From Acidobacteriota bacterium (GTDB taxonomy: Bacteria; Acidobacteriota; Vicinamibacteria; Vicinamibacterales; UBA2999), in the NCBI GenBank assembly GCA_947482665.1, contig CANKJK010000001.1, positions 345,582-409,581 of the forward strand: a stretch of 64,000 nt of DNA, given 5' to 3'. A model generated the notes under the pieces. It saw only the letters and a program-made list of their open reading frames with translations. It made no database searches and was not told where the DNA came from. Of this stretch, positions 26,474-39,156 are shown one piece after another; the first letter of the stretch is position 1, and each line of letters starts with the position of its first letter. Position numbers and translations under genes: made by a program.

Positions 26474-27204
26474 CCACCGACACCCCGACGACAGAGCGCG
26501 ACGCGCTGGTCATCGAACACGTCGGACTCGTCAAGACCCTCGCCCTGCGCCTGGCGCAGCGTCTGCCTCCGCAGGTTGACGTCGGCGACCTGATCAGCGT
26601 GGGCACGCTCGGCCTGATCGACGCTGCCAGTCGCTACAAGGCCTCGACGGGTGTCCCGTTTGACGCCTTCGCCCGCCGGCGCGTGCAGGGCGCAATGCTC
26701 GACGCCCTACGCGACATGGACTGGGCTCCGCGTTCGGCCAGACGCATGCGCCGGACTGTCGACTCAACGGTCGCCGGGCTCCGGCACACGCTGCAGCGAG
26801 AGCCCAGCGAGGCTGAGATCGCCCGAGCGATGGACCTTCCGGAAGCCGATCTGCAGAAGGCGCTCGACCAGCTCAAGAGCATGGACCTGGGCCTCATGCG
26901 GCAGCTCGACTCGGCCGGGCCTGACGGTGCCCCACTCATCGAGTTGTGCGTCGACCCCTCGGAAGGAGTGGTGAGCCAGATCGAGCGGTCCGAAATGCGG
27001 ACGTTGCTCGCGTCCGCCATCGCCGAGCTGCCCGAGCGCGAACGGCACATCCTGGCACTGTATTACGAAGAAGAGATGACGCTCGCCGAGATCGGTGAGG
27101 TGCTGGGCGTGTGTGAGTCGCGCGTTTCGCAACTGCGCACCCTCGCTATCTCGCGCCTTCGGACGACGCTCAGAGGCACGCTCGGCTCGGAGGCTGCGGC
27201 ATGA
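26464..27204 (+). CDS. fliA: RNA polymerase sigma factor FliA (sigma28)
   Basis: sigma2/3/4 regions; VDVGDLISVGTLGLIDAASRY; MTLAEIGEVLGVCESRVSQLRTLAISRLR. Confidence 0.95.
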   Translation: MRMTTDTPTTERDALVIEHVGLVKTLALRLAQRLPPQVDVGDLISVGTLGLIDAASRYKASTGVPFDAFARRRVQGAMLDALRDMDWAPRSARRMRRTVDSTVAGLRHTLQREPSEAEIARAMDLPEADLQKALDQLKSMDLGLMRQLDSAGPDGAPLIELCVDPSEGVVSQIERSEMRTLLASAIAELPERERHILALYYEEEMTLAEIGEVLGVCESRVSQLRTLAISRLRTTLRGTLGSEAAA

Positions 27205-28175
27205 ACGGTCGGGTCCTCTCACAAGCGGAAATTGATGCCCTGCTCCCGGCTTCTCGGGAATCGGCAGGAAAGCCTGGAGCTTCAGGCGGCGCGGTTCCGT
27301 ACGACTTCAGCCGGCCGGATCGGATCACCAAGGACGAACTGCGGTCACTCCATTTACTGCATGACCGCTTCGCGATGAATGTCTCGACGACGCTCTCCGC
27401 CTACCTCCGCGCCGTAACCGAGGTGTCGGTCGTCTCCGTCGAGCAGTTCCTCTACTCCGAGTTCCTGATGTCGCTGCCGGATGCGACCGCGTTCTACGCG
27501 GTCGATGTCGACCCGATGCGGGCGACTGGCGCGCTCGAGATCAGTCCCCTGGTCGCCTTCACGATCATCGACCGGATGCTCGGAGGCAGTGGCGTCGGCA
27601 GCGCGCCAAATCGGGCCATGACGGAGATCGAGTTGAACGTCGTGGACGCCATTGCAAAAGTGCTCCTCAAGACACTCGCCGACACCTGGCGACCCATGGC
27701 GAAGGTGCAGCTACGGGTCACGGGTCGCGAGACACGCCCGCAGATGCTCCAGGTGTCTGACTCCAACGAGGTCATGATCCTGCTGGTCTTCGACGTCCGC
27801 GTGGGAGAGAACAGGGGAGCGATGCACTTGTGCTTCCCTGCGGCGGCACTCGAGCCCATCGTGCAGGCAATGGCCTCGGGCAACCAGCGGGCGCGCGAGT
27901 CGAACACGAAGGCCGAGCAGTGGCTCCGGAGGAATCTGTCGCGGGTGCCACTGTCCGTGTCCGCGCAATTGGAGACGACACTGCCGGCCCGCGACCTGGT
28001 GCTACTCCAGCCAGGTCAGATTCTTGAGCTGCCGCATGTCGCCGGTCGTCACGTCGACGTGCATGTTGGCGGGCGGACGCGCTTCCGCGGACGGCTGACG
28101 ATTCAACCGAACAGCATGGCGGGCGTCGTGGTGGAGCAGTTGGCCTACCAGGGTCAACTCGCGGAGGCGGCGTAG
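27201..28175 (+). CDS. fliM: Flagellar motor switch protein FliM
   Basis: CheY-binding N-terminus LSQAEIDALL; GGSG core; C-terminal SpoA. Confidence 0.96.
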   Translation: MNGRVLSQAEIDALLPASRESAGKPGASGGAVPYDFSRPDRITKDELRSLHLLHDRFAMNVSTTLSAYLRAVTEVSVVSVEQFLYSEFLMSLPDATAFYAVDVDPMRATGALEISPLVAFTIIDRMLGGSGVGSAPNRAMTEIELNVVDAIAKVLLKTLADTWRPMAKVQLRVTGRETRPQMLQVSDSNEVMILLVFDVRVGENRGAMHLCFPAAALEPIVQAMASGNQRARESNTKAEQWLRRNLSRVPLSVSAQLETTLPARDLVLLQPGQILELPHVAGRHVDVHVGGRTRFRGRLTIQPNSMAGVVVEQLAYQGQLAEAA

Positions 28176-28177
28176 CT

Positions 28178-28525
28178 ATGGCGGGAGAGATGGAAGGCGC
28201 TGTGCCGATTGGATCGCTGGGGCCACGAATGGTGCGCCCGGGCGGTCGCATATCCGGAAAGGGCAATCAGCTCGATGTCATCCTCGATATCGACCTGCCG
28301 ATGGTCGTCCGCTTTGGACATACGGAGATGACGATCGAGGCCCTGACGCGGATTGGCGAGGGCTCGGTGATTGACCTCGGGAGATCGCCGCACGAACCGG
28401 TGGACCTGTTGGTGAGCGGTCGACTGGTGGCCCGGGGTGAGGTCGTGGTGGTGTCGGGCCATTACGGAGTCAGAGTTCTGGAACTCGTCAGCGGTGAGAA
28501 CGCTGGCACGGGGATGGAGGCGTAA
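28178..28525 (+). CDS. fliN2: Flagellar motor switch protein FliN (copy 2)
   Basis: SpoA: LDVILDIDLPMVVRFGHTEMTIEALTRIGEGSVIDLGRSPHEPVDLLVSGRLVARGEVVVVSGHYGVRV. Confidence 0.93.
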   Translation: MAGEMEGAVPIGSLGPRMVRPGGRISGKGNQLDVILDIDLPMVVRFGHTEMTIEALTRIGEGSVIDLGRSPHEPVDLLVSGRLVARGEVVVVSGHYGVRVLELVSGENAGTGMEA

Positions 28526-28527
28526 CT

Positions 28528-28917
28528 GTGGTGATGATGGGCGTAGTCGTCGTGGGTATCGTGGTGCTGACAGGGCTGCAGGTCGTACAGATTCGCGGCA
28601 TGTTGTATCAGCAGCAGGCCGTGGCGCGGATGACCGATCGGGTGGATCAACTGCGCGCGGCCATGGCTCTGCTCACCGATACGACGGAGACCGGGTTCCG
28701 CGACATCGCCATGGAAGTCGGGCGCAGCGCGGCCGCAGTGCCCGCACCGAAAGCCAGGGCCCAGGTCGCCCGGCGGATCACCGGTGCAGCCAGGCGCGGA
28801 CGCACCGTTCGGGAAATCGCCGCCTCCGAAAAAATGTCCGAAGGGGAAGTCCGGCTGCGCATGACGCTGGCCGAGGCGCCAACCGGAAGGAAGGTCCGCC
28901 GTGCCCCGGTGCAGTGA
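28528..28917 (+). CDS. Membrane-anchored coiled-coil protein with C-terminal HTH-like segment (DUF2802-like)
   Basis: N-terminal TM; coiled coil; RRGRTVREIAASEKMSEGEVRLRMTL. Confidence 0.55.
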   Translation: MVMMGVVVVGIVVLTGLQVVQIRGMLYQQQAVARMTDRVDQLRAAMALLTDTTETGFRDIAMEVGRSAAAVPAPKARAQVARRITGAARRGRTVREIAASEKMSEGEVRLRMTLAEAPTGRKVRRAPVQ

Positions 28918-29725
28918 CCCTCAGTGTGGGCGGTGGAGGCCGGAGCGGCCCGTTCTCGGACTCTCCCAGGGCTTCAGGCTGAACGGCTCGTGGTACTGCT
29001 CGCGTGAGTGCCTCGACGCGGCGGCCCGGCTGACGTTGGGTGGCACCCAGTTCCCCGTTTCCCCCGCCACCGGGCTGCCGCCGTTGCGACTCGGTGTGCT
29101 GCTGCGGCACCAGCGGGCGATCGACGGAGAACAGCTCCAGGCCGCGCTTGATGAACAGCGAATGAGCGGCCTGAAGCTCGGCGCGCAGCTCCGGTCCCTT
29201 GGCATGGCCTCTGGCGAGTCGGTGCTCAAGGCGCTCGCCGTCCAGAATGGCGTGAGCTATCTCTCGTCCCTGGATTTGAACCGTGTGCGGGGCGGGTGTC
29301 CGCTGCCTGTGGCCACGGTTCGGGCACTCGGCCTCGTGCCGTTTGACTTCGACCCGTTCGAGCGGCGCGTCTCGGTCGCGATCACGGCGCCGCTGTCGCG
29401 CGCGGCCGTCCGTGCCATGGCGACGCTGACGCAGTGGACGGTCGAACCGTTTCTGGTAGACGACGCGGTCTGGTCCGTGGCTCTGGCGTCCTACCGGCCG
29501 GTGGAGTCCCCCGATGGGCAGCCCTGGTCGGCGGCGGTCTCCAGCGTCCGACAACTGGCCGACCACGTTGCCGCGCTCGCGGTTGACGGTCAGCCTGTGA
29601 CCATGCGCCACGCGGCCTTTGACTCGCGCACGTGGGTGCGGCTGGAGTCGGGCCGGGAAACCCGGGATGTCGTGGTCACCCCCGATGGAGGAATCCCATG
29701 GCCGGTGCAGCCTACAGCGCACTGA
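28901..29725 (+). CDS. N-terminal zinc-finger plus MshEN (c-di-GMP-binding) domain protein
   Basis: CSDPQC...YCSREC; RLGVLLRHQRAIDGEQLQAALDEQ-5 aa-KLGAQLRSLGMASGESVLKALAVQ matches the tandem MshEN motif; no ATPase domain. Confidence 0.8.
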   Translation: MPRCSDPQCGRWRPERPVLGLSQGFRLNGSWYCSRECLDAAARLTLGGTQFPVSPATGLPPLRLGVLLRHQRAIDGEQLQAALDEQRMSGLKLGAQLRSLGMASGESVLKALAVQNGVSYLSSLDLNRVRGGCPLPVATVRALGLVPFDFDPFERRVSVAITAPLSRAAVRAMATLTQWTVEPFLVDDAVWSVALASYRPVESPDGQPWSAAVSSVRQLADHVAALAVDGQPVTMRHAAFDSRTWVRLESGRETRDVVVTPDGGIPWPVQPTAH

Positions 29726-30417
29726 GCGGGATGCGGAACCGGCTCGAGGAGCTGGATCGCATCGCCGTCGACCTGGCGAATCTGAGCACGCCCGGGTACA
29801 AGACCGAGCGCAGCGCGCAGTCGGCGTCCTCGCGCAGCGCCTTCGAAGGCACGCTCGACTCCGCCGTGGATGTCACGAAGGGCGTCACGAAGATTGATTT
29901 CCGCCAGGGGACCATCGCGACGACCGGCCGCGATCTCGATGCGGCGATCGACGGAACAGGATTCTTCGTGATTGAGACCCCTGCCGGGCCGCGCTACACG
30001 CGTAACGGCGCGTTCTCCCGGTCCGTTGACGGCACGCTGGTAACAGCAGACGGGCTGACCGTGCGTGGCGAGAGCGGCCCCATCCGGCTCGGCAAGGGGC
30101 CTGTTGCGATCTCCGGCGACGGGACCATCAAGGTCAACAACGTGCCGGCTGGAAAGCTGGCGGTCGTCGACCTCCAGGAAGCAGACGCGGTGCGGGAGTC
30201 CGGGGCGCGCTTCAACAGCCGGCCCGGCAAGACACCTGAGCCTGTGTCCAGTGCCCGGATCGTCGGCGCGTCACTTGAGAACGCGAACGTCTCCATGGTG
30301 GATGCCATGGCGCACCTCACCGAAGTGTCCCGTGGATTCGACTCCATGCAACGGGGCATGTCGACGGTCTTCAATGACATGGACGAGCGCGCGATCAGCG
30401 AGCTCGGACGCCGGTAA
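29698..30417 (+). CDS. flgF: Flagellar basal-body rod protein FlgF
   Basis: AAYSALSGMRNRLEELDRIAVDLANLSTPGYKTERSAQ; FlgE/F/G-type C-terminus. Confidence 0.9.
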   Translation: MAGAAYSALSGMRNRLEELDRIAVDLANLSTPGYKTERSAQSASSRSAFEGTLDSAVDVTKGVTKIDFRQGTIATTGRDLDAAIDGTGFFVIETPAGPRYTRNGAFSRSVDGTLVTADGLTVRGESGPIRLGKGPVAISGDGTIKVNNVPAGKLAVVDLQEADAVRESGARFNSRPGKTPEPVSSARIVGASLENANVSMVDAMAHLTEVSRGFDSMQRGMSTVFNDMDERAISELGRR

Positions 30418-36635: not shown

Positions 36636-37531
36636 TGCGAACCACCTTCGGCAACGTCGCTCGCGACACGGCCGCCGGTATCGAGGCGGCCGGCAAACGT
36701 CTGGCGTTCTTCCAGAGGCAGGTGTCGAGCGGCAAGCGGCTCGCCGCGCCGAGCGACGACCCGAATGCCGCGATGCGCGTCGTGTCCGCCCGTGGTGAGC
36801 TGGCGACGGTGGAGCGGTACTCGCAGGCCACCGTGACCACCACGGCCCGTCTGACGGTCGTCGACTCGACGATGAGCGGCATCGTGGAAACCCTCAGCCG
36901 CGCCCAGACCGCGGCGCAGAGCGCCGCCGGCGCCAGTGTGACGGCGGCTCAACGACAGGCCGCAGCCAGAGACCTTGCTGGACTGCGGGACTCACTTTTC
37001 GAAGACCTGAATCTGACTTATCAGGGCACGCACATCTTTGGCGGCAGCGCGACGACCACCGCACCGTTCACAAAGGACGGGTCAGGCACCGTCAGCGCCT
37101 ACGCAGGCAACAGCGCGGAGCTCACGGTGGACATCGACCGGGGCCGGTCGGTCGGTGTGACGTTTGACGGTTCGCGCCTGACGCAGGGCAGCGATGCCGA
37201 GGATGTGTTTGCCATTTTTACCCGGACCATCACGGCGGCCGGGGCCGGAGACAATGCCGGCCTGATGGACGGCGTCGCGGCGCTGAAACGGGTGTTCGAC
37301 CGCGCGAACAGCATGCAGGGTGAAGTGGGCAGCGCCCTGAACGCGATCACCTCCGAGCAGGAGCGGTTGCGCGTGCAGCATGAAACGACCACGACACGTA
37401 TCTCAAGCCTTGAAGACGCCGACATGACCAAAGCCATCTCAGGGATGACCGAGGCCGACACCTCATATCGGGCCGCGCTGGGCGCATCAGCCAACGCCTT
37501 GCGTGTCTCTCTGCTGGACTATCTGAAATGA
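36635..37531 (+). CDS. flgL: Flagellar hook-associated protein FlgL
   Basis: Flagellin-like N-terminus (RLAFFQRQVSSGKRLAAPSDDP), follows flgK. Confidence 0.93.
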   Translation: MRTTFGNVARDTAAGIEAAGKRLAFFQRQVSSGKRLAAPSDDPNAAMRVVSARGELATVERYSQATVTTTARLTVVDSTMSGIVETLSRAQTAAQSAAGASVTAAQRQAAARDLAGLRDSLFEDLNLTYQGTHIFGGSATTTAPFTKDGSGTVSAYAGNSAELTVDIDRGRSVGVTFDGSRLTQGSDAEDVFAIFTRTITAAGAGDNAGLMDGVAALKRVFDRANSMQGEVGSALNAITSEQERLRVQHETTTTRISSLEDADMTKAISGMTEADTSYRAALGASANALRVSLLDYLK

Positions 37532-37938
37532 CCGAACCGAACCTGACGATTCCGACTGAACTCGTGGTGACCTTTCCCGATGGCCTGCCAGGCTTCGAGG
37601 CCTGCCAGCAATTCCTGCTGTACTCCAAGCCGGAGACGCTGCCCATCCGGTGCCTGCACGCCGTGGAGGGGCCACGGGCGTCGTTTCTTGCAATCCAGAC
37701 CGACGAGGCGCTTGAGGGATACCGCCATCAGTTGAGCGGGCCGGACCGGCTCCGTCTCCAGGTGGAGGACGAGTCGCACCTGCTGTGGCTCGCCGTCGTC
37801 ACCGTGGATGAGGAGGGGCCGGTGACCGCCAACCTGCGGGCGCCCATCGTCATCAACGTCGCGAAGCAGCTGGGGTATCAGATCATGCCCCATCAGTGCG
37901 TGTACCCTCTGCGGCACCCGCTGGCCCAGGCCGCCTGA
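37528..37938 (+). CDS. fliW: Flagellar assembly factor FliW
   Basis: FPDGLPGFEACQQFLLYS; TANLRAPIVINVAKQLGYQI. Confidence 0.95.
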   Translation: MTEPNLTIPTELVVTFPDGLPGFEACQQFLLYSKPETLPIRCLHAVEGPRASFLAIQTDEALEGYRHQLSGPDRLRLQVEDESHLLWLAVVTVDEEGPVTANLRAPIVINVAKQLGYQIMPHQCVYPLRHPLAQAA

Positions 37939-37951
37939 GACCGGAGCCCAC

Positions 37952-38212
37952 ATGCTCGTGTTCACCCGCCGCCGCAACGAAGCCATCATGATCGGCGACG
38001 GCATCACGGTTCGCGTGATCCGTGTCGGCAGGAATGGCGTGCGCCTCGGAGTCGAGGCACCGCCGGCCATCCCTGTCCATCGCCGTGAAATCTACGAGCA
38101 GATCATGGCGGCCAACATGACCGCGGCGGAAGCGCCCGCGAAGATCGACGCCATCATCGAGCGCCTTCGCGCAAACCAGCCGGTCCGCGGAGTGTCACAG
38201 CTCGAGGCATGA
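37952..38212 (+). CDS. csrA: Carbon storage regulator CsrA
   Basis: MLVFTRRRNEAIMIGDGITVRVIRVGRNGVRLGVEAPPAIPVHRREIY. Confidence 0.97.
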   Translation: MLVFTRRRNEAIMIGDGITVRVIRVGRNGVRLGVEAPPAIPVHRREIYEQIMAANMTAAEAPAKIDAIIERLRANQPVRGVSQLEA

Positions 38213-39156
38213 CCATCACCGACTGGTCCGGAGCCGCGCCGGGCGCGGTCGCAGAACTCTATGCGCGGGAATCCCAGCAATGGCGGGACGCATTTGACTG
38301 GGACACCGCGGCGCAGTGGTTGGAAGTGGAGACTGCGCGCACGGCATGGGGACTCCCGGGCCTGCTGGCCACGGACGACGCGGGCCAGCCTGTGGGCTGG
38401 CTGTTCTACCTGCCTGGACCAAGCGGTGCGCAACTCGGCGGTGTCAGCGCCACCACCCACACCATGACGCGCGCCCTCGTCGCGGCGTTCGCCAACCGCG
38501 AGCAGGGGAGAACTTTCGCCGCGTTCATACCGGCACTGTCGCCGGGTCTCGAGGAGGCCCTGCACCTCGTCGGGTGCGAGACGATCCCTCACCTGCACCT
38601 GGTCGCCTCGCTGGACCGACTGACTCAGCCTCCGATGACCCGGCCGGTCGATGCTGGCATCACCCTGCGCCCCTGGCGCACCGGTGACGACCTCGTCGCC
38701 GCCCAGGTGTTGCTGTCCAGTTACGCCAGGGACGACGCCGCGCTGTTTGCGCCGACGGGGGCACCCGATGAATGGCTGACCTATGTCACGAACCTCGTCG
38801 AGCAGATTGGGTGCGGACGGTTCGTGCCGGAGTCGAGCGTGGTGGTGGAGCGTGACGGCCGGCCTGCCGGGATCGCCCTCGTCACACTGGTCAGCGGTGC
38901 GATGGCCCACCTGGCGCAGATCGCCGTCATGCGCGACGCACAAGGACGGGGCCTGGGAGGGGCGCTGCTCGATGCGGCACTCGGCGCGGCCCGTGCAGGC
39001 GGTGCACGAGCCATGTCGCTCCTGGTGTCCAGCAAGAACAAGGGGGCCATCGCGCTCTATCGCCGCTACGGCTTCGAGCCGCGCGGGCACTTCCTGGAGG
39101 CGCGCGGACTCGCGTCCTCCTCCGGCCCGTCCGACCAGGTTACCCCCGTCGGTTGA
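38209..39156 (+). CDS. Tandem GNAT-like acetyltransferase
   Basis: C-terminal GNAT motif A (AQIAVMRDAQGRGLGGALLDAAL) and NKGAIALYRRYGFEPRG; N-terminal half resembles a degenerate GNAT. Confidence 0.8.
   Translation: MTITDWSGAAPGAVAELYARESQQWRDAFDWDTAAQWLEVETARTAWGLPGLLATDDAGQPVGWLFYLPGPSGAQLGGVSATTHTMTRALVAAFANREQGRTFAAFIPALSPGLEEALHLVGCETIPHLHLVASLDRLTQPPMTRPVDAGITLRPWRTGDDLVAAQVLLSSYARDDAALFAPTGAPDEWLTYVTNLVEQIGCGRFVPESSVVVERDGRPAGIALVTLVSGAMAHLAQIAVMRDAQGRGLGGALLDAALGAARAGGARAMSLLVSSKNKGAIALYRRYGFEPRGHFLEARGLASSSGPSDQVTPVG

Follow-up and report, generated by a model that had tools for sequence, protein, structure and literature searches.

The 64,000-nucleotide window analyzed here, a single stretch of an Acidobacteriota genome, contains a flagellar gene cluster in which a gene at positions 28901 to 29725 (+ strand, stop codon included) encodes a 274-amino-acid protein combining a putative zinc finger with an MshEN domain. 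This gene has a GTG start codon, at a site shared by its orthologues, and a purine-rich ribosome-binding site (GGAAGGAAGG) upstream of it. On the same strand lie fliM (27201 to 28175; Pfam FliM, 2.1e-54), fliN (28178 to 28525; Pfam FliMN_C, 1.1e-20), and a small, conserved gene for a transmembrane, HTH-like product (28528 to 28917), the 3' end of which overlaps the start of the MshEN protein gene, and these are followed on its other side by flgF (+ strand, 29698 to 30417; Pfam FlgE/F/G domains), whose start codon is inside the last 28 bases of the gene. These two overlaps therefore place the gene in the middle of an operon, with fliM-fliN before it and flgF-flgG after it. The reading frame and its coordinates, the cysteine pairs, both MshEN motifs, and the RMSGL spacer, all reported in a first-pass annotation of this DNA, were found again in the sequence. 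The product of the gene at 28528 to 28917, which is conserved just upstream of the MshEN protein gene throughout the order, begins with a hydrophobic segment and ends in an HTH-like region; it matched no Pfam family above the cutoff, with DUF2802 and HTH families as subthreshold hints. This product may be analogous to Bacillus SwrB. The flagellar cluster ends with fliW (37528 to 37938) and then a GNAT acetyltransferase gene (38209 to 39156).

The encoded protein begins with a four-cysteine module (residues 1 to 47, 28901 to 29041), modeled as a hairpin and a helix, in which the cysteines are spaced as C4-x4-C9 and C33-x3-C37. No Pfam zinc finger family matched this module, and its cysteine pattern suggests a metal-binding zinc finger. 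Two MshEN motifs of 24 residues each, motif I (residues 63 to 86, RLGVLLRHQRAIDGEQLQAALDEQ; 29087 to 29158) and motif II (residues 92 to 115, KLGAQLRSLGMASGESVLKALAVQ; 29174 to 29245), are separated by the five-residue spacer RMSGL and together span the match to NCBIfam model NF053729 (residues 63 to 115). They are followed by the alpha/beta subdomain that forms the C-terminal part of MshEN (residues 116 to 200, 29246 to 29500), seen in the predicted structure, in its fold match, and in a Pfam MshEN match at residues 135 to 200, and then by a beta-alpha-beta-beta-beta domain (residues 205 to 262, 29513 to 29686) that was delimited from the model and the alignment and contains a nearly invariant WxR. 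We found no known relative of this last domain. We considered and rejected the possibility that it is a remnant of PilB N2, as a weak profile signal (above 120 shuffled-column decoys) had no support from structure comparison. Neither a Walker A motif nor an ATPase domain was detected in the 274-residue protein by sequence inspection or by Pfam and NCBIfam searches, in agreement with the absence of an ATPase in the first-pass annotation, and no PilZ domain was matched in Pfam.

The match of the protein to NF053729 (c-di-GMP_motif; 40.7 bits, E of 1.5e-10, cutoff of 38) is more than a chance one, and this model also matches 20 of 20 members of the order's alignment and scores above the cutoff in 6 of 7 distant members. 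A phmmer search against the PDB returned Thermus PilF (E of 4e-11), and NfrB-type NCBIfam models matched weakly. For Pfam MshEN (PF05157), the protein alone scored 20.6 bits, below the gathering score of 23.1, over the C-terminal half of the domain, while in the genome scan the score was 22.8 bits, which was counted with its neighbors as reaching 23.1.

Motif copy 1 keeps all six contact positions, and at the contact positions of copy 2, K replaces R and V replaces L. The full published motif adds a glycine at position 10 and hydrophobic residues at positions 7, 11, and 12 (PMC5013675); beyond the contact positions, copy 1 has R7, R10, and A11, its turn glycine, which makes no ligand contact, being changed to arginine, and copy 2 has R7, M11, and A12. 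Because the copies deviate at positions 7, 10, 11, and 12, the earlier description of this MshEN signature as near-perfect is accurate for the six ligand-contact positions but not for the full motif. K167 of Thermus PilF GSPII-B, at motif I position 1, provides tight c-di-GMP binding (PMC11731258), and by analogy the lysine that opens copy 2 would not preclude tight binding, although K167 sits in motif I instead. In PilF GSPII-A, an extra helix turn helps block the ligand (PMC12002112); the window protein has prolines directly before motif I (PPL-RLG), which would be expected to disfavor a similar turn. From its sequence and its model, the protein is predicted to bind c-di-GMP.

The AlphaFold2 model of the 274-residue protein (pLDDT of 84.3, pTM of 0.78) consists of the hairpin-helix module (residues 1 to 47), a four-helix MshEN bundle (residues 64 to 116), the alpha/beta subdomain, and the C-terminal beta-alpha-beta-beta-beta domain. 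The best Foldseek matches were 5htl and 8pfa, with c-di-GMP-bound MshE (5htl, 1.3e-8) and PilF-GSPIIB at the top (target TM of 0.68 to 0.76, E of about 1e-8) and lower target TM values, 0.48 to 0.61, for PilF-GSPIIA and XpsE, which are reported non-binders. The MshEN fold that the first-pass annotation had expected is therefore seen in the model, with both its four-helix and alpha/beta subdomains. Since AlphaFold may lean toward known bound forms, we take the Foldseek match as support, not proof, for c-di-GMP binding.

Searches of 59 relatives identified 19 full-length orthologues with 34 to 50% identity. In an alignment of 51 sequences, the glycines of both motifs and W245 occur in all 51, as does one of the two glutamines, the other being kept in 49; Cys4, Cys9, Cys33, and Cys37 are kept in 50 to 51. 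The mean fraction of the commonest residue is 0.81 at the 12 contact positions versus 0.40 elsewhere, a level of conservation that none of 20,000 random column sets reached. The architecture, the putative metal residues, and the ligand residues are thus conserved in relatives, and two of the three outcomes that the first-pass annotation had named as refuting, a missing MshEN fold and a lack of conservation, did not occur. At position 1 of motif I, all 21 sequences of the order have R or K. Outside the order, proline replaces the first stacking arginine in 20 of 30 sequences, so that c-di-GMP may not be bound by every member. These data bear on whether the protein could instead be a ligand-blind assembly or stability factor, with its MshEN fold serving as a protein-protein module that aids assembly of the C-ring, rod, or export gate. 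Non-binding MshEN domains do exist, in XpsE (PMC5013675) and in Thermus PilF GSPII-A, which fails to bind c-di-GMP even with the consensus restored (PMC12002112), and both the prolines outside the order and the position of the gene among structural genes fit such a factor. However, the ligand-contact glycines and glutamines are among the best-conserved residues, alongside the cysteines, and the invariably basic residue at motif I position 1 within the order also argues against it.

We found flhA in 23 of the 59 relatives, and 20 of these 23 carry the zinc finger-MshEN gene, compared to 0 of 36 flhA-negative relatives with a full-length copy (Fisher test, 6e-13). Two flhA-positive relatives (G007 and G044), in which the contig ends just after flhA, were left out of the resolvable flagellar loci, 20 of 21 of which contain the gene. 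In all 20, it lies directly before flgF-flgG, with the transmembrane protein gene upstream; fliN was seen in 19 (the other, L007, is cut off before fliN), and fliM is present wherever the locus extends far enough. In G052, the gene is truly absent and the transmembrane protein gene is followed directly by flgF, and in G221, a flagellated genome of the same order, the gene is also absent from an otherwise intact operon. Since these two lineages have lost the gene with the operon otherwise intact, the protein is accessory and probably regulatory; this loss is ill-suited to a required assembly factor, and we consider a ligand-blind assembly or stability role unlikely. We also observed that the FliN of G052 (L036:5674-6462) is longer, at 262 amino acids, and FliY-like, with a weak, subthreshold CheX match at its N terminus.

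In a sample of 297 genomes from the phylum (90 flhA positive and 207 flhA negative, with full-length copies counted at E < 1e-20), 19 of the flhA-positive and none of the flhA-negative genomes had full-length copies. Flagellar loci from at least four further families of the phylum contain a gene with a matching architecture, and a wider profile added 18 flagellated genomes of one family (f23), in all of which the gene adjoins fliN, with flgF following in some. Recurrence beside fliN and flgF in other genomes, which the first-pass annotation had proposed to survey, therefore extends across the order and into other families. A single-sequence scan of named genomes gave no match, but a profile from a tighter alignment did, in Vicinamibacterales/Acidobacteria MAGs; plasmids gave no match. 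These named relatives place the genome containing the window within the Acidobacteriota, probably in the Vicinamibacterales. In another family (f37; G149, G205, G292, G299, and others), frames of about 300 amino acids match MshEN from profile position 60 or so without a zinc finger and possibly represent another stand-alone MshEN family.

Synteny and co-occurrence are the basis for proposing a flagellar role. An accessory protein of pili or secretion, encoded in the flagellar cluster by chance, would fit the best-known setting of MshEN, in PilB/GspE-type ATPases (PMC5013675), as well as one homologue (G288) located outside flagellar genes. We regard this as very improbable, given that throughout the order and in other families the gene keeps one place in the flagellar operon, and that it is absent from all 36 flhA-negative relatives, many of which have PilB-like MshEN ATPases. 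A regulator of flagellar gene expression, whose zinc finger would contact DNA, RNA, or a transcription factor under modulation by c-di-GMP, would account for the conservation of the four-cysteine module and has precedents for c-di-GMP control of flagellar transcription in FleQ and FlrA (PMC12564702, PMC10519070). However, Pfam and NCBIfam searches found no DNA-binding family in the protein, and overlapping frames between structural genes are a better fit to a motor-associated protein, so that a role in gene expression seems improbable.

Two GGDEF proteins are encoded in the genome containing the window, and RLGGDEF is intact in one of them; a phosphodiesterase search restricted to the EAL type, as opposed to HD-GYP, found none. 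On contig C3 of this genome (about 259410 to 260871), a GGDEF gene adjoins a gene for an MshEN-containing, ATPase-like protein. Two small PilZ proteins are also encoded, neither with a recognized YcgR-type N-domain (the search covered PilZNR, the YcgR N-domain other than PF07317), and PilZNR was absent from 20 of 20 searched flagellated genomes of the order. Replacement of YcgR by the zinc finger-MshEN protein is only suggestive, because another family has both PilZNR and the gene, and G052 and G221 have neither.

We favor, as the probable function of this protein, that of an accessory, flagellum-dedicated c-di-GMP effector, soluble and cytosolic, which would work like YcgR but be built on MshEN and a zinc finger. 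Such an effector would be coproduced from overlapping genes with FliM and FliN of the C-ring and FlgF of the rod. The c-di-GMP would most likely sit between the pair of helical hairpins in MshEN (residues 63 to 115), and the ligand is expected to shift MshEN subdomain packing and so change how the protein presents its zinc finger and C-terminal domain to a flagellar partner. The gene neighbors suggest a target in the C-ring, rod, or export apparatus; the partner would probably belong to the C-ring or the export apparatus, and rotation or assembly would change. Metal binding, ligand binding, the partner, and the direction of the effect are all elements that we infer.

More tentatively, this protein may represent an undescribed, phylum-wide family of flagellum-dedicated receptors that combine MshEN and a zinc finger, take the place of YcgR/MotI-type PilZ proteins, and directly target the C-ring or the export gate. 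If so, there would be an additional receptor class at the motor and a testable swim-or-settle switch for a phylum abundant in soil, and MshEN would serve as a portable sensor beyond the ATPases of pili and secretion systems. We found no earlier description of a flagellar protein with a zinc finger and MshEN in a literature search short on subscription journals; novelty is provisional, since most of those journals were outside this search and the sequence search was of Acidobacteriota.

As flagellar c-di-GMP effectors, two reviews list PilZ proteins, FliI, and transcription factors, FlrA among them (PMC12564702, PMC10519070). The window protein resembles YcgR, MotI, and FlgZ in its proposed role as a soluble c-di-GMP effector on the flagellum; in contrast to these PilZ proteins, it has no PilZ domain and shares no sequence with them. 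With the MshEN domains of Vibrio cholerae MshE and Thermus PilF GSPII-B, it shares two 24-residue motifs, a 5-residue spacer, and a two-subdomain fold, but it lacks their ATPase, has a four-cysteine module before MshEN and a small new domain behind it, and is encoded in a flagellar rather than a pilus or secretion locus. The first-pass annotation held that MshEN is known mostly from secretion ATPases, a statement that needs qualifying, as fusions to REC, HD-GYP, CheA, CheX, and other domains have already been listed (PMC5013675). Like NfrB and these fusions (PMC5013675), the window protein would use MshEN for sensing in a protein other than a secretion ATPase; unlike them, it has no enzymatic or receiver domain and instead joins MshEN to a putative zinc finger and a C-terminal domain within a flagellar operon.
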